Source of the DNA: Gemmatimonadota bacterium
GTDB taxonomy: Bacteria > 4572-55 > J002
Direction of reading: 5' to 3'
Assembly (NCBI GenBank): GCA_003697105.1
Contig: RFFQ01000079.1
Coordinates: 1 to 12,727, forward strand
DNA: 12,727 bases
This document shows positions 3,910 through 10,766 of this stretch, piece after piece (the first letter of the stretch is position 1; the number at the start of each line of letters is the position of its first letter). Position numbers and translations under genes: made by a program. Under the pieces are notes generated by a model, which was not told the DNA's origin, made no database searches, and saw only the letters and a list, made by a program, of their open reading frames with translations.

Positions 3910-5355
3910 TTAAAATGTTTCAAAGGCGAGCCATAAAATATCGTCATGCAGACGATCAATCACACTGGTGCGGACGGGATAATGGTTTGTGATGAGGCTG
4001 AATGCAATGGTGTGACCACGTTGGGTTGTCAAATAGCCACTATGACTGCGCGTTCCAGAAAGCGAACCGGATTTTCCTCGAATTTTATTTGCCAACCGGT
4101 GAAATCGGGAATCCAAGCTACCATCCACTCCAGCAATGGAGAGGCTATTTTCAAACACTTCAAAGTGTGGTGTGTCCCGCATTCGCACCAAAAAATCGGT
4201 CATTTCTGCGGTAGTGATCAGTGTCGCTGAAGATAATCCCGAGCCATCTTTTAGTACCAGTCGTTCGGGGTCAAACCCCATCTGTTCGGCAAATGTTTGG
4301 ATCCACTTCAGCCCGTTTTCCGTTGTGCCCGGAGTGCCGTATTGATATGCCGCGGCGGTTTTGAGCAACATCTCCGTAAAAAAATTATGGCTATGCTTGT
4401 TGACCGGTTCAATCAGACGGGATAACGGTTCGGAGGTATGCCGTGCCAAATGTTGAAAGCCGATTTTTGTCCAGTTCCGTTGAACGCGATCCCGGCGAAT
4501 TCCGCCCTCAATTGAAATCCCTTTTTGCGCCAAAAAGCGCCAAAAACTATCCAGAAAAAAATAGGTTGGCTTGTGAACCGAGAGCGATTCAGTCTCCCGG
4601 TAGCCTTGCGGCAATTTGCTCCGTAATAAAATCGTATTTGTTCCCAACAGCCGCCGGTAGGATTCCACGTAGCGCGTGCCGGGCGCCTGTACCTGTTGCT
4701 CATTGATAAACTGCACATAATCCGTGTTGAACGGGAACCATGAGATCGATGGGGCACTCCCCACTGGGGTATTGGCTTCCACCACCAAATCGACACAATT
4801 TTCGTTAAAGGAGAGCGCACTTAATTCCACGGCATAATAAAAGGAGAGATCATCCCATTCCCAACCGTGCGGATACGGTTCATCATCGAAAAAAGCGTCA
4901 TTACCAACCAGATCACCGGTGATGGTACGGATGCCCGCCGCCGCCAACTGCCGGTAAAACTGCTCAAAAACAAACCATCGATCCGCCCGGTAGAAGCGTC
5001 CGCTGATGGAGGGGTCTCCGCTGCCAACGATGTAAATATCCCCCTCCCACACGCCATCGATTAACTGGCCATCACCCCAGATGTCCGTCTGATAACGGAA
5101 ATCAGGACCGAGTGCTTGCAATATCGCCGCACTGGTAATCAGTTTTAAGTTGGATGCCGGTGTAACCCGAGTCCGGCTATTGACTCGCGCTAGCTCCACT
5201 CCGGCGGTATCCCGAAAGGAGACCGACCACAAGGCATCTGCCGCGGTGGAACGTTGTATCAGGGCTTCAATTTGTGCTTGAACATCAGCAGGTTGGGCTT
5301 GGCTGCGGGCTGTCCATATCCCCCAGATGACCAGTAGGATTGTGCACCATCTCAT
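3910..5355 (-). CDS. dacB: D-alanyl-D-alanine carboxypeptidase/endopeptidase (PBP4, peptidase S13)
   Basis: A periplasmic peptidoglycan hydrolase of the PBP4 family, which trims terminal D-Ala and cuts peptide cross-links. The 481 residues are the usual family size. An N-terminal Sec signal peptide (about 1-20, cleavage probably after ARSQA) is followed by the three active-site motifs of serine penicillin-binding proteins: SNLK (Ser68 nucleophile, Lys71), SHN (322-324) and KSG (428-430). The long insertion between the first two motifs, characteristic of S13, is present (about 85-300). The ATG at 5355 overlaps the stop of the desulfurase gene (ATGA), and AAAGGAA lies upstream, so translation is coupled. 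Why a cell-wall enzyme ends an operon of sulfur-like genes is unclear; it may simply be a conserved neighbour. The family assignment is secure. Confidence 0.94.
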   Translation of the reverse strand: MRWCTILLVIWGIWTARSQAQPADVQAQIEALIQRSTAADALWSVSFRDTAGVELARVNSRTRVTPASNLKLITSAAILQALGPDFRYQTDIWGDGQLIDGVWEGDIYIVGSGDPSISGRFYRADRWFVFEQFYRQLAAAGIRTITGDLVGNDAFFDDEPYPHGWEWDDLSFYYAVELSALSFNENCVDLVVEANTPVGSAPSISWFPFNTDYVQFINEQQVQAPGTRYVESYRRLLGTNTILLRSKLPQGYRETESLSVHKPTYFFLDSFWRFLAQKGISIEGGIRRDRVQRNWTKIGFQHLARHTSEPLSRLIEPVNKHSHNFFTEMLLKTAAAYQYGTPGTTENGLKWIQTFAEQMGFDPERLVLKDGSGLSSATLITTAEMTDFLVRMRDTPHFEVFENSLSIAGVDGSLDSRFHRLANKIRGKSGSLSGTRSHSGYLTTQRGHTIAFSLITNHYPVRTSVIDRLHDDILWLAFETF

Positions 5356-6809
5356 TCTGAATTCCTTTCCAAAGGCGCTGTCTCTTTAATTTGGGTTAGA
5401 ATAGAGGGCAGGTAACGTAATAAATAATCCAGATCGGCTTTCGTGGTTTTCAATCCCATACTAAAGCGAACGGTTCCGTAGGACGCCGTATCTGCGCGAA
5501 TTGCCTTGAGAACGTGCGAGGTCTCAATCTTGCCAGAACTGCATGCCGAACCGGCAGAGACCGAGATACCAATCTCATTCAGGCTGAGCAACAGCGCGGC
5601 GGTATCCACCTGTGGAAATCCGATGCTCATGTTATGGGGCACCCGGTGCGTGGCAGACCCATTCAATATAATATTTGGCTCGATTTGCTTCAATTGAGTT
5701 AAAAAATAGTGATGCAATTCGGATAAGCGGTGGTGTTCGGTCTCCATTTCGGCTAAGGCGAGCCGGACTGCCGCCGCAAATCCTAAAATGTGCCCGACAT
5801 TCTCCGTACCGGCACGCAAGCCAAGTTCCTGTTCGCCTCCGTGGATCAGGGGTGCGAGTGTGATGCGATGATCCACAAATAAACCCCCGATGCCTTTGGG
5901 TGCATATATTTTATGCCCGGAGACCGACATCAGAGAGACCCCCCACGTTTTGGGATGCAGTGGGATTTTGCCCAGACCTTGAACCGCATCCACAAATAAG
6001 GGTACGTTGTGCTGGCGACAGACCTCGCTGATTCCCCGGATCGGATTGATCGTACCAATCTCATTGTTGACCATCATCACGGCAACGAGTCGCGTATCGG
6101 TACGCATGTGGTTTGCCACGGTTTCTGGCGACACCCGGCCTTCGGGATCAACCTCCAGATAGGTCACATCAAAACCGAGGGTTTCCAAAAATTCCATGGT
6201 TCGCAAAACGGAGGAATGTTCCACTTGGGTTGTAATGAGATGTCCCTTTTCTGCCCAATGCTGAAACGCAATACCTTTGATTGCTGTGTTGTTTGCCTCC
6301 GAACCACTGCCTGTAAAGATAAACTCTTCCGGTTCAACTCCTAAACCTTGCGCAATTTGTGATCGAGCTGAATTGATCAAATCAAACGCCTTTTTCCCTT
6401 GCCGGGTACTGCTACTTGGATTGGCGAAGCCTAAATTTCCGCGATAGTAGTCAACCAACACCTGCGCGACTTCTGGGCGGATGTACGTGGTGGCGTTGTG
6501 ATCCAGATACACCTCCCGATAATCATCCACAGTGATATTCGCAATGGGTTTACAGGGGGAATCTGCGGTCTGAATAGGAATGCCCACCCACGTATAAACC
6601 GAATTCAATCCATTCGGAAAAAGACGGTTGATCTCCGTTTTGGTGGTGCCCAGAGCCTTTTTGAGGGTATAATAGAGCGGTCCCACCCGGTGCTGGTTGT
6701 AATAATGGTAAGCAAAGGTCAAAATTTCCTCGTGACGAGGGGTGAGGGGCGTGTGTGTGGCGCGAGCCATGCGGTTGATCATCACTTTCACGTAATTATC
6801 CAGTTTCAT
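5352..6809 (-). CDS. DsrC/TusE-like domain fused to NifS/IscS-type cysteine desulfurase
   Basis: 485 residues in two parts. Residues about 1-88 resemble the DsrC/TusE sulfur-carrier family: LTPRHEEILTFAYHYYNQHRVGP, a short helix, RLFPNGLNSVYTWVGIP, then a cysteine (C86) eight residues on, near where the family has its C-terminal active cysteine. The second DsrC cysteine (eleven residues earlier) is absent, as in TusE. Residues about 99-475 are a complete PLP-dependent cysteine desulfurase: YLDHNATT, GSGSEANN, H198 in the EHSS motif, D274 in VDAVQ, PLP lysine K300 in SGHK, and the catalytic cysteine C423 in GSACSSG. The enzyme should move cysteine sulfur onto C423 and possibly on to C86 of the same chain. 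I start it at ATG 6809, which overlaps the DUF169 stop (ATGA); the open frame further upstream lies inside DUF169 and is not DsrC-like. Desulfurase identity is near certain; the DsrC-like call is good but rests on pattern recognition. Confidence 0.88.
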   Translation of the reverse strand: MKLDNYVKVMINRMARATHTPLTPRHEEILTFAYHYYNQHRVGPLYYTLKKALGTTKTEINRLFPNGLNSVYTWVGIPIQTADSPCKPIANITVDDYREVYLDHNATTYIRPEVAQVLVDYYRGNLGFANPSSSTRQGKKAFDLINSARSQIAQGLGVEPEEFIFTGSGSEANNTAIKGIAFQHWAEKGHLITTQVEHSSVLRTMEFLETLGFDVTYLEVDPEGRVSPETVANHMRTDTRLVAVMMVNNEIGTINPIRGISEVCRQHNVPLFVDAVQGLGKIPLHPKTWGVSLMSVSGHKIYAPKGIGGLFVDHRITLAPLIHGGEQELGLRAGTENVGHILGFAAAVRLALAEMETEHHRLSELHHYFLTQLKQIEPNIILNGSATHRVPHNMSIGFPQVDTAALLLSLNEIGISVSAGSACSSGKIETSHVLKAIRADTASYGTVRFSMGLKTTKADLDYLLRYLPSILTQIKETAPLERNSE

Positions 6810-7684
6810 GCCGCATCCATATTTGCGCCGGGGTACAAATGAAAGGGATAACCGGTTCGGGAGGCTTCCATCCCGCACACAATCTCCTCAAAACGGGAAA
6901 ATGGAATGCCCATGCCCAATCGATTCGGGTCATATTGGGCAATTAGCCGGGCTCCGATGCAATAGGATGAAAAATTGATCTCTTGGGTCAAATAGGGGCG
7001 GACAATCAGATCGGAATTCACCACGCGGACGGGTCCCATGCTGGCATTTACCCGTTTGCCTGTCAAGAACTGGTATGCTTGTATAATGCGGGTCAATTCC
7101 ACCGGACGAACATCAAGCGTGATGACATCTGGAATGAGGTCGATTTCATCAAATGTATGGGCATAAAAAAAGACACCCTTCATTATTGCCGGCTGGATCG
7201 CGCTCATCTCTTGAATGGCGTGGCGGGCAATCTCCGGTGTTTGAAATCTACCGGAATCCTCCTTACCAAACAGGGCAAAATCGGGGCGACCTGCCGCCCG
7301 GCAGGCATAAACGATGCCCTCTGTGAAATCATGCGGAGTAGGTGGTTGAAAGCGATCGCCTAAATCAGATTGTTTTTTCATCAGATCGGTATAGACCCGC
7401 GAGCCACTCAGCGGTTGCCGCTCATGTTGGTCAACGAGACCGAACGTAATCGCTGCCGCCACACAACCGATATTATCCCGGGTGAGCAAGACGGCATCTC
7501 CCAGTGCTGCCTGTTTGTTTGCTTGACAACTGGTGAGAGTGATGTTGTCGGGTTTGTAATCCAGCACGGCGGCGGGAATTGGGTCATTGTGCCGGAAAAA
7601 TTTTACGGCGGTCAGGGGGATGTTCAAACCGGCGACCCCCATCGCGTCGATCATCCGTTGGTATAACTGGTGAAGTGTCGTCAT
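6806..7684 (-). CDS. DUF169 family protein
   Basis: A 292-residue soluble protein of the DUF169 (COG2043) family, whose function is not established. Recognisable parts are the pair TSCQANKQA (C53) and GCVAAAITFGL (C74), a GIVYACRAAG segment (C128), NFSSYCIGARLIAQYDPNRLG (C242), and a C-terminal FEEIVCGMEA (C270). These repeated cysteine-containing motifs are the family hallmark and could bind metal or carry sulfur. I start it at ATG 7684, six bases after AAGGTG, rather than at the GTG at 7693. The stop shares bases with the next start (ATGA), tying it to the DsrC-desulfurase fusion. No signal peptide or membrane segment is visible. Confidence 0.83.
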   Translation of the reverse strand: MTTLHQLYQRMIDAMGVAGLNIPLTAVKFFRHNDPIPAAVLDYKPDNITLTSCQANKQAALGDAVLLTRDNIGCVAAAITFGLVDQHERQPLSGSRVYTDLMKKQSDLGDRFQPPTPHDFTEGIVYACRAAGRPDFALFGKEDSGRFQTPEIARHAIQEMSAIQPAIMKGVFFYAHTFDEIDLIPDVITLDVRPVELTRIIQAYQFLTGKRVNASMGPVRVVNSDLIVRPYLTQEINFSSYCIGARLIAQYDPNRLGMGIPFSRFEEIVCGMEASRTGYPFHLYPGANMDAA

Positions 7685-7708
7685 TGAGCGCACCTTCTAG
7701 ATAACAGA

Positions 7709-7754: not shown

Positions 7755-8690
7755 TTATTTTGCTCCTGCCGCCGCTGCAAATGTGATGTTGACAAATTTT
7801 TCCAGATCGATTTTACCGGACATTCCCGTGTTGGCGGGCACCTTTTCGGTGAGGTAGGTCTGAATCCGGTCTAAATCTTCTAACACCGGAAACAGTTCCC
7901 GGGTGGTGACCCGATCGGGGGGAGTCGTCAAGACGGTACGGACGACGTCTTCCTTTTGGTTTAGGAAATTTGCCCCAATTTTGGTGGTTTCATCCACATG
8001 ATCATGTACAAAATCACCGGATTTTACCAAACTTTCCGTGAGTTCGTGCAACAAATTCGGGTAACGATGGATGACCTCATCCCGTGCCACTACCACGCAA
8101 CATGGATGGTTGGGCCAAATATCTTTGGAAAGGGCAAATTCCTCACCCCAGCCTTCTAAAACCACCTGTGTACCGTACGGCTCGGCGACAATATAACCCC
8201 CAATCTCACCGGCTTCGTCATATTTAATGGCTTGCGGAATTTGGGATGGCGCAACGACTTCAAACGTGACATCTTTACCCACACCGGTGGTCAATCCTTT
8301 TTCTTTGAGGAGTTGGTCAAAAAGCATGTAATGGATGGATAGATTGTAGGGGATCAAGACGGTTTTGCCTTTAAAATCCTCTAATTTTCGGATGTTGGCG
8401 CGCTTATTTGTCACGATAATACTGCCGGATTTATGCGCTAACAAGATCAGTTGTGCTTTTACTCCCGCATGAAACAGATCCATGGCGTATGGTGCGAGCA
8501 TAAAGGCAATATCAATGTCTCCTTTCATCAAGGAACTGCCCACATCATACCAGCCCACCATCGGGATAGTTTCAATGTCGCCATATTGAAATTCTTCTGT
8601 GTGCGTTCGCAGTTTATTTTCAGTTACCCCTAAAATCAGGTGATCGGTAATCTGCAAATGCCCGATCTTCAACGTCGGTTTCGTGCCCAT
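7755..8690 (-). CDS. NMT1/NrtA/SsuA-type binding-protein-fold protein without signal peptide
   Basis: 311 residues with the look of type II periplasmic binding proteins of the nitrate/sulfonate/THI5 group: KIGHLQITDHLILG at the start, GDIDIAFMLAPYAMDLFHAG (57-76), SGSIIVTNKRANIRKLEDFKGKT (88-110), GGYIVAEPYGTQ (164-175), NHPCCVVVARDEVI (194-207). The open frame upstream of ATG 8690 holds no alternative start codon and no hydrophobic stretch, so no signal peptide can be added; the protein should stay in the cytosol. A GAGAGGG ribosome binding site supports the start. No ABC permease or ATPase gene is nearby. It may be a cytosolic ligand sensor or an enzyme on this fold (THI5 and MqnA are precedents) rather than a transporter subunit. 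Its position just before DUF169 and the desulfurase fusion hints at a sulfur- or amine-containing ligand, which is inference. Confidence 0.78.
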   Translation of the reverse strand: MGTKPTLKIGHLQITDHLILGVTENKLRTHTEEFQYGDIETIPMVGWYDVGSSLMKGDIDIAFMLAPYAMDLFHAGVKAQLILLAHKSGSIIVTNKRANIRKLEDFKGKTVLIPYNLSIHYMLFDQLLKEKGLTTGVGKDVTFEVVAPSQIPQAIKYDEAGEIGGYIVAEPYGTQVVLEGWGEEFALSKDIWPNHPCCVVVARDEVIHRYPNLLHELTESLVKSGDFVHDHVDETTKIGANFLNQKEDVVRTVLTTPPDRVTTRELFPVLEDLDRIQTYLTEKVPANTGMSGKIDLEKFVNITFAAAAGAK

Positions 8691-8771: not shown

Positions 8772-9146
8772 TTATTGGCGGATCAACCAATCGAGTGCTT
8801 CTTGTTCCGTCTCAAATGCGTATAATTTCCGCCGAATTGTCATCTGAATCGTGTTAATAAAAATGCGGCTTAGTGGCGAGGCGCCTACAATCGCAGATGC
8901 TTTAACATACGGAGTATTATCGCGGGTATATTGGATCGCAATCTCTGTGGCTTCTTTGGTCAATTTGAATTTGGTGAGATTGGTCAATACCCGTACCGAT
9001 TTAGGGGGTTGTTCCCGAATAATCAAGCTGGCTTTCCGTAACTGCTTGACATAATAATCAAAATCCAATTCAACGTAAGCGCTCAGGTCTAAATACAAGA
9101 TATGGTAACCCTGATACACGCGCCAGTACACCCGTTCTTCTATCAT
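8772..9146 (-). CDS. STAS/SEC14-like small protein
   Basis: A 124-residue soluble protein that alternates strands and helices: YWRVYQGYHILYLDLS (7-22), a helix with YYVKQLRKASLIIREQP (31-47), the strand SVRVLTNLT (50-58), a helix to about 73, YVKASAIVGASPLSRIFINTI (80-100) and RKLYAFETEQEALDWL (106-121). This layout, with a central 'VG.....R......' turn and a terminal 'F.T.EEAL.WL' helix, is that of the STAS/SEC14 (SpoIIAA-like) family seen in many environmental bacteria. The function is unknown; members often lie near signalling genes. AAAGGAGT stands 4 bases before the ATG, and a near-perfect promoter ends about 30 bases upstream. It is the first gene of the leftward operon; an 81-base gap follows it. 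Confidence 0.68.
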   Translation of the reverse strand: MIEERVYWRVYQGYHILYLDLSAYVELDFDYYVKQLRKASLIIREQPPKSVRVLTNLTKFKLTKEATEIAIQYTRDNTPYVKASAIVGASPLSRIFINTIQMTIRRKLYAFETEQEALDWLIRQ

Positions 9147-9499: not shown

Positions 9500-9946
9500 A
9501 TGATGCGACCAAAATCCAATAAGAAAAAACGGAGCTCGATCTATGACAGTATGAAACACAAACAGATCGAACAGGAAAAAGAGGCAAAAAAAAGTATTGG
9601 CACGACACAAGAAATAGAAGCCGAACTCAAAAAAATGGAAAAAATGGTCTTGGACCTGAATGAAGCTTACCAGAATTTTTTTAGTGGTAAAGGGCGGGAA
9701 CCCAAAGTGATGCGGCGGGAACTGGAAAATTTAATCCGAAAATACCAACGCGGAAGCCTCCCTCGGGCGGCATTAAAGTTTCGGTTTGAAAATATTCAAT
9801 CCAAAATGGCATTATACCGCCCCCGCTGGGAGGAAAAACTGCGTGAAATGCGGTTTAATGACATTACCTTCACGACAACAGAAGCAACCCAAGTGGAACG
9901 TGAAGCGATCAACAAAATTTTCGACCTCAGCGATTTTGACGGCTAA
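9500..9946 (+). CDS. Coiled-coil protein resembling the MXAN_5187 C-terminal family
   Basis: A 148-residue soluble protein. The first 12 residues are basic (MMRPKSNKKKRSS), and about 18-55 form a charged coiled coil. The core, about 50-118, reads LDLNEAYQNFFSGKGREPKV, RRELENLIRKYQRG, ALKFRFENIQSKMALY and RPRWEEKLREM. This matches my recollection of a domain found in Myxococcota (MXAN_5187 C-terminal type: 'YFsG.e...P...R..l..lIr....t.l.n.alrFrfn.l..ry..y...W.r.lR'). The role of that family is not known to me; it is often met beside signalling proteins. The last 25 residues are acidic. AAGGAGG ends 9 bases before the ATG at 9500; a second ATG follows at 9503. Its 3' end overlaps the convergent lipoprotein gene by 20 bases. 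Confidence 0.72.
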   Translation: MMRPKSNKKKRSSIYDSMKHKQIEQEKEAKKSIGTTQEIEAELKKMEKMVLDLNEAYQNFFSGKGREPKVMRRELENLIRKYQRGSLPRAALKFRFENIQSKMALYRPRWEEKLREMRFNDITFTTTEATQVEREAINKIFDLSDFDG

Positions 9947-10409
9947 ACCGGACGGGTGCGGCGTCTATTTTCGGCACAACTACAATGTGGTACGGTTGGG
10001 TCAATGCCATGGTGACCATACCTCCCTCGCTGGGGGTTTTTTCATGGATATTCACATATAACGTATCGTTTCGCTGCTTGATCTGTGTAATCTCAATGCC
10101 ATATCCACCGGTACGTTGTTCACCTTGAAAAACCGCAATGACTGACTGTGTTGTAAAATCAACCACCGGTGTTTCCGGTAGCGGTTCCCGGATGGAATTG
10201 AGGGCGCGCCACAGATTCTCCCATTCCGTTTCATCCTGAATCACAAGCTCTTTTTTTTCTTTAATACCGCTGTAACTGCCGCTAAATTCCTCAATAACAT
10301 CGATCTGCTTGAAATCGGATCCGTCCAAGTTCACCCCTTGTTGGCGTTTACAGCCCATCATCCCGGCCACAAGACATAAAAACACCATTACACTACCCCG
10401 AAGTGTCAT
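9927..10409 (-). CDS. PrcB-domain lipoprotein
   Basis: 160 residues. An N-terminal signal sequence MTLRGSVMVFLCLVAGMMGC places a lipidation cysteine at C20 (the -3 position is Met, a loose but acceptable lipobox), followed by a polar spacer. Residues about 55-150 form a PrcB-type C-terminal domain: DETEWENLWRAL, VDFTTQSVIAVFQGEQRTGGYGIEI, then TQPYHIVVVPK. The domain takes its name from the protease-complex protein PrcB of Treponema denticola, which partners the protease PrtP; many homologues are free-standing lipoproteins of unknown role. No protease gene is adjacent. I chose ATG 10409, which has AAAGGAGT 4 bases before it; the open frame extends further upstream but without a ribosome binding site or signal-like sequence. 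Confidence 0.83.
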   Translation of the reverse strand: MTLRGSVMVFLCLVAGMMGCKRQQGVNLDGSDFKQIDVIEEFSGSYSGIKEKKELVIQDETEWENLWRALNSIREPLPETPVVDFTTQSVIAVFQGEQRTGGYGIEITQIKQRNDTLYVNIHEKTPSEGGMVTMALTQPYHIVVVPKIDAAPVRFSRQNR

Positions 10410-10766
10410 AACAACTCCTTTCATTTTTTCTTGATAACTCGATAACTTATACTGATTTCCTATTTTGACAAGGGAGCCTATCAAGATGGGGGTATGTTTT
10501 CGTGGAATCGAAGCACTAGCAAGGCACTGACCTACTGTTACCCCTAACTCTTGCGTATCCATCTCCTTAGCATATCCCAATGGGCAACTCCCGAGATTCA
10601 TTCTTTCGAATTCCGGGAACCATATTAACGGGTTTTTTACAAATCAGCAAGATAAATTCGTTTGGAGCAAAAAGAAGGTGACGGCATACTAACGGGAAAT
10701 AGCTCCCAAATGTTAGGCGGCCTGTACCAGTCAGCTGTTCAGGCATACCCTTATCTGCAATTTCGC
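10410..10766. other. Intergenic region without a convincing gene
   Basis: Nearly 360 bases between the lipoprotein gene and the promoter at 10767. Open frames on both strands are short and read as unstructured, low-similarity peptides with no usable ribosome binding site. An imperfect 11-bp hairpin lies at 10589-10618 (TCCCGAGATTC / GAATTCCGGGA, one mismatch and one G-T pair), followed 12 bases later by a run of six T (10631-10636), too distant for a standard terminator. A tandem GATAACT repeat sits at 10433-10448. Confidence 0.6.
10433..10448. repeat. Tandem 8-base repeat GATAACTC-GATAACTT
   Basis: Two head-to-tail copies of GATAACT with an 8-base period lie 24-39 bases upstream of the PrcB-lipoprotein start codon. 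They could be a direct-repeat operator or part of a promoter. No good -35/-10 pair for the lipoprotein gene could be assigned nearby. Confidence 0.3.

Follow-up and report, generated by a model that had tools for sequence, protein, structure and literature searches.

A DsrC/TusE-type domain fused to a cysteine desulfurase

The window analyzed here, a 12,727-nucleotide stretch of DNA from a Gemmatimonadota bacterium, contains a gene coding for a DsrC/TusE-type sulfur carrier domain joined to a class I cysteine desulfurase. The fusion also occurs in 14 further genomes, and a gene for a DUF169 protein lies directly upstream of it in 15/15 genomes. This recurrence, together with the constant DUF169 partner, points to a dedicated, undescribed sulfur-delivery route. 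Judging from the sequences, the fusion protein is probably a specialized second desulfurase that would pass persulfide sulfur from its catalytic cysteine, C423, to its own C86 arm and on to an acceptor in the DUF169 pathway.

In the ORF listing of the window, the fusion gene starts with an ATG at 6809 and ends with a stop codon at 5352-5354. From N to C terminus, its product consists of a truncated DsrC/TusE domain (aa 3-88), a linker of variable sequence, and an entire desulfurase; its structure was predicted with a mean pLDDT of 86 and a pTM of 0.77. The first-pass annotation of this DNA had described the same ORF with RLFPNG and G-I-P motifs, C86, K300, and C423. All of these were confirmed, the motifs being RLFPNG at aa 62-67 and G76-I77-P78. 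The features of the gene are as follows.

5352..6809, minus strand: fusion gene, DsrC/TusE-type domain plus class I cysteine desulfurase, 485 aa plus stop
6546..6809, minus strand: DsrC/TusE-type domain, aa 1-88 (Pfam DsrC, PDB phmmer, hhalign)
6513..6572, minus strand: variable linker, aa 80-99, flanking the invariant C86-K87 (column entropy)
6552..6554, minus strand: codon of C86, counterpart of the penultimate (persulfide) cysteine of DsrC (alignment)
5376..6518, minus strand: NifS/IscS-type desulfurase domain, aa 98-478 (NifS profile; Foldseek/VIA)
5910..5912, minus strand: K300, the PLP lysine in an SGHK motif, invariant (alignment)
5541..5543, minus strand: C423, the catalytic cysteine in an SAGSACS motif, invariant, in the low-pLDDT loop 421-425 (alignment and model)

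The N-terminal domain is of the DsrC/TusE family

The Pfam DsrC profile (PF04358) matched the window protein with an E value of 4.5e-5 and 24.3 bits in hmmscan, just under the cut-off of 24.9, and the same domain reached 27.4 bits, above the cut-off, in the genome scan. As the score of the window protein is borderline, its identity was cross-checked with homologues, the PDB, hhalign, and a reciprocal HMM. The fused domain scored above the Pfam cut-off in 12/12 homologous genomes, and a phmmer search of PDB sequences returned five matches, all of them DsrC chains. Profile-profile comparison, a check proposed in the first-pass annotation, matched the fused domain to free DsrC with 98.6-98.7% probability and an E value of about 1e-15 for a single pair. 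Conversely, when an HMM was built from the fused domains alone, its top-scoring matches among non-fusion proteins were DsrC proteins with the C terminus ..AGLPKPTGCV. The assignment to DsrC/TusE, originally read from a few motifs, is thus borne out by profiles in both directions and by the PDB sequence search. Winged-helix LexA-type proteins of the window genome reached 18.7 and 15.9 bits with the DsrC profile; a chance winged-helix match was ruled out because these scores are lower and the reciprocal search prefers DsrC.

The core LT..H..I..F...YY....P......L......LFP.G......G.P is common to the fused domain and DsrC/TusE, and a single cysteine of the fused domain aligns with the penultimate one that carries persulfide in DsrC. 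It differs in lacking the N-terminal ~30 residues, starting at DsrC alignment column 33-35, and in being covalently joined to a desulfurase. Its cysteine lies three residues further out, at an internal position that is not near a free C terminus, and the second DsrC cysteine, CysB, is replaced by Y72.

Other DsrC proteins were encountered in the searches. The window genome encodes a free DsrC (locus L001, G000:C24, 1498-3297) with a single C-terminal cysteine in GLGKPKGCV; it adjoins a DsrE-like protein and a sulfide:quinone oxidoreductase-like flavoprotein, the latter judged by eye. Tandem DsrC-DsrC proteins of 260-283 aa were found at L032/L043 (G008:C3:19552-20292) and L038/L041 (G008:C45:121201-121938). 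Both halves match the profile up to position 101/107, and each match therefore ends before the cysteine arm.

The C-terminal domain is a complete class I desulfurase

The C-terminal four fifths of the protein matched Pfam Aminotran_5 with an E value of 1.4e-71. The NCBIfam NifS profile scored 403.8 bits over 378/379 positions, short of the NifS equivalog (TIGR03402) cut-off of 530.75. Foldseek and VIA matched the predicted model to IscS, NFS1, and NifS chains (VIA Z 44-50, 1.7-2.5 A), and K300, H198, D274, Q277, and C423 were invariant in all homologues. The protein therefore has the full-length fold and catalytic residues of IscS/NifS class I enzymes, including the PLP lysine and the loop cysteine; it departs from them by its extra N-terminal carrier domain and its score below the equivalog cut-off. 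The earlier reading, in which the carrier domain is joined to a class I desulfurase of full length, was upheld. Both domains are genuine and appear sufficiently intact to function.

One or more further NifS/IscS-type enzymes were present in 14/15 fusion genomes at the threshold used, the exception being a Spirochaetales MAG. The desulfurase of the fusion is thus an extra enzyme rather than the housekeeping one. Another large desulfurase fusion was seen in a Magnetocorallium MAG, where a NifS-type domain lies within a 1136-residue open frame (L124, G011:C53:85551-86681).

An invariant cysteine in a variable linker

Conservation of C86 in fused homologues, which the first-pass annotation had set as a test of its own reading, was complete: C86 and K87 were invariant in 15/15 fusion sequences, from eight phyla. 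Over these 15 sequences the mean column entropy was 1.81 bits for aa 80-85 and 1.57 bits for aa 88-99, compared with 0.99-1.03 bits for the two domains and zero for C86 and K87. An invariant C86-K87 amid a linker more variable than the domains argues that the C86 thiol needs a job. C86 is the sole cysteine of the N-terminal domain in 13/15 sequences and aligns with the penultimate cysteine of DsrC (CysA) via a 3-residue insertion. The position of CysB, 11 residues before CysA, is occupied by Y72, invariant in the 13 aligned sequences. This bears out the single-cysteine form noted earlier. With Y72 in place of CysB, an internal disulfide or trisulfide cycle is impossible on the fused domain, so that the trisulfide chemistry of two-cysteine DsrC is disfavored, as the first-pass annotation had proposed. 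In free DsrC, the cysteine equivalent to C86 is the only one that binds sulfur, and CysB occurs together with DsrAB (PMC3397948). When DsrC is incubated in vitro with cysteine and the IscS of E. coli, this penultimate position alone becomes persulfurated, a precedent in trans for the proposed transfer (PMC3397948). The cysteine pattern supports a thiol relay via C86 rather than trisulfide chemistry.

The predicted structure had a pLDDT of <50 in the segment aa 78-85 and low confidence in 421-425 as well. Both C86 and C423 lie in or next to these segments, which are presumably mobile, although a low pLDDT denotes uncertainty rather than proven motion.

The DsrC domain might instead serve as a docking or targeting module for DUF169 or another partner, with C423 giving sulfur straight to the acceptor and C86 gating or protecting the active site, or anchoring by a disulfide, rather than relaying sulfur. 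Such an arrangement would fit class I desulfurases such as IscS, in which the long loop bearing the catalytic cysteine can itself serve more than one acceptor; complexes of IscS with TusA (3lvj) and with IscU (3lvl) are among the structural matches. The DsrC core residues are, moreover, conserved as strongly as C86, and the displacement of C86 by three residues from the canonical DsrC position, to an internal rather than C-terminal site, counts against the relay. We nevertheless consider pure docking unlikely, since it leaves the strict invariance of C86-K87 within a variable linker unaccounted for and the DsrC counterpart of C86 is the sulfur-binding cysteine (PMC3397948).

Occurrence of the fusion in eight phyla

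The first-pass annotation had suggested checking whether this arrangement of domains recurs elsewhere, and it was found in 14 other genomes, belonging to seven named phyla, with the window genome representing an eighth. Since 14 independent genomes share the architecture, an assembly or frameshift artefact as the origin of the fusion was ruled out. When each species was represented by a single genome, the scan yielded 12 fusion genes, carried by Acidobacteria, several Desulfobacterales, Spirochaetales, Nitrospinia, Anaerolineae, "Ca. Anammoxibacter" (Planctomycetota), and "Ca. Magnetocorallium" (Nitrospirota); phylum samples added one more carrier in Desulfobacterota and one more in Planctomycetota. 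The fusion is rare, with 2/297, 1/301, 1/245, 1/297, and 2/343 genomes in five phylum samples (sizes 245-343), each count including the starting genome of its sample. The phylum of the window genome was sampled by two genomes, the other of which has no fusion.

Identity in the fused domain is 48-66%, which together with the scattered occurrence suggests horizontal spread. Most carrier genomes are MAGs, and single binning errors are therefore possible. In a tree of desulfurases all 15 fusion sequences fell on one side of a branch with a bootstrap of 38/100 (40% of bootstrap trees), a weakly supported grouping compatible with a single origin. As for spread by phages or plasmids, the viral scan revealed no relative of the fused domain, and among the plasmid scan matches listed, only the desulfurase part matched.

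Genes for dissimilatory sulfite reduction were also considered. dsrA was found above the cut-off in 7/15 fusion genomes and had no match over the cut-off in the window genome. A general role in dissimilatory sulfite reduction was rejected, as 8/15 genomes have no dsrA over the cut-off. The fusion is distinguished from DsrC proper, the two-cysteine protein linked to DsrAB, by the absence of both CysB and the constant company of DsrAB.

Strict pairing with a DUF169 gene

6806..7693, minus strand: DUF169 (PF02596) protein, start GTG at 7693, invariant C56, C77, and C245

The product of this gene scored 106.7 bits with the DUF169 profile in a Pfam scan (cut-off 27), and in the window its stop codon overlaps the start of the fusion gene by 4 bases (ATGA). 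Pairwise distances of the DUF169 and fusion proteins were correlated (r=0.885, permutation p 0.0001), with a contribution of shared ancestry. The two proteins co-diverge, and part of the correlation may be plain shared inheritance.

Three cysteines, C56, C77, and C245, are invariant in the DUF169 proteins of the fusion units. The same DUF169 type occurs in five genomes of the Desulfobacterota sample, two of which have the fusion; it is present without the fusion, and with the three cysteines kept, in G028, G049, and G175. Because these three genomes have the DUF169 type alone, the idea that DUF169 requires the fusion was rejected, and the retention of the cysteines there argues that they are not specific acceptors of sulfur from it. 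As the fusion was always found with this DUF169 type and the converse is untrue, the desulfurase has the look of an accessory that provides sulfur to a process involving DUF169.

The structure of the DUF169 protein was predicted with a mean pLDDT of 84. Searched against the PDB, this model gave no Foldseek match at E<=0.001, and the best VIA match had a Z of 3.6 (1pxt, 159 aligned, rmsd 6.8); neither search thus produced a clear structural match. At L149, a more distant DUF169 protein is encoded near a TauE-type exporter and a sigma-54 regulator. In Desulfovibrio G20, where DUF169 and TauE genes are adjacent, mutants in them have increased fitness on nitrate (PMC4001038). Elsewhere, two different DUF169 proteins are encoded on either side of a TPR-like-repeat ORF, with no desulfurase fusion (L159, 5027-5833 and 7196-8146).

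Proposed mechanism and relation to known systems

In the relay that we favor, the desulfurase domain, whose catalytic motifs are intact, would take sulfur from L-cysteine via K300-bound PLP and form a persulfide on C423 of the mobile loop. The sulfur would then move to the DsrC/TusE arm of the same or the partner subunit, where C86 is the only cysteine, and the strict gene pairing suggests that the loaded DsrC-type domain would dock on an acceptor belonging to the DUF169 pathway. The likeliest acceptor would be the DUF169 protein encoded alongside, or else its client molecule. The whole would amount to a single chain combining the roles of IscS and TusE, with no TusA or TusBCD, and would lie outside DsrAB sulfite chemistry. 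More tentatively, the fusion and DUF169 might form a horizontally spread, dedicated system in which the self-loading DsrC-desulfurase gives persulfide sulfur to DUF169 for an undescribed modification or thiolated metabolite.

The first enzyme and the last carrier type of the E. coli IscS-TusA-TusBCD-TusE-MnmA relay correspond to the two halves of the fusion. It is plausible that the fusion would skip the Tus relay, whose intermediates are absent from the chain and unrecognized in its neighborhood. The fusion might even be a self-contained TusE-type donor for tRNA 2-thiouridine synthesis by MnmA, with TusA and TusBCD omitted: its single-cysteine form is TusE-like, and in E. coli the last carrier of the relay, which contacts MnmA, is the DsrC homologue TusE (PMC3397948). 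This role is very improbable. In the loci examined, where the majority of neighboring ORFs were assessed by visual inspection, no mnmA or tus gene was recognized beside the fusion, and the constant partner is DUF169. Furthermore, the unit is rare and scattered, with 1-2 genomes per phylum sample of 245-343, whereas the tRNA modification is near-universal. The target is thus probably not tRNA.

Desulfurase-acceptor fusions are a kind already known. A natural desulfurase-rhodanese fusion, CD-rhodanese of Pseudorhodoferax, likewise unites the enzyme with its acceptor in a single polypeptide and was shown to be bifunctional (PMC8931425), which makes it a precedent in cis. Its acceptor is rhodanese rather than DsrC/TusE, and it is not known to have a DUF169 partner. 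The Pfam scan detected no member of the rhodanese family. In the open-access literature searched, we found no description of a DsrC/TusE-desulfurase fusion, which may be described elsewhere.

Desulfurases and persulfide carriers normally dock only briefly, which makes their contact difficult to investigate, and a natural single chain allows direct measurement of transfer to a DsrC/TusE cysteine. The strict pairing also provides a concrete functional lead for DUF169, namely a persulfide or sulfur donor made beside it. If this reading is right, sulfur taken from cysteine would have a destination not previously named in organisms that include sulfate reducers, anammox planctomycetes, and Nitrospinota.

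An NMT1/SsuA-type neighbor and signaling genes

7755..8690, minus strand: cytoplasmic-looking, leaderless NMT1/SsuA-type binding protein, whose orthologues adjoin the same DUF169 type

The NMT1/SsuA-type protein is a probable third member of the unit in the window genome. A DUF169 gene adjoins one for an NMT1-type protein in the window, L016, and L160, and in the latter two the NMT1 domain is fused to REC and CheW. The window protein is 40-42% identical to the NMT1 core of these REC-NMT1-CheW proteins (L016, 3208-5118; L160, 5036-6985) and has an HPCCVV motif in common with them. It is possibly a cytoplasmic ligand sensor.

The NMT1-type domain, DUF169, and the desulfurase might then form a sulfur-sensing, regulatory unit that sets a persulfide signal for chemotaxis or two-component signaling. 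The REC and CheW fusions of the NMT1 orthologues beside this DUF169 type agree with such a role, as do a hybrid histidine kinase downstream in L007, with homologues in L010, L012, and L014, and an MCP upstream in L008. However, these signaling neighbors are inconstant and NMT1 was present in two of the fusion loci examined, making a regulatory function of this kind rather improbable. Delivery of sulfur to the DUF169 pathway remains our preferred reading.

The window also encodes a SpoIIAA/STAS-like protein (8772-9146) and a PrcB-like protein (9927-10601) of the dentilisin-complex subunit family.
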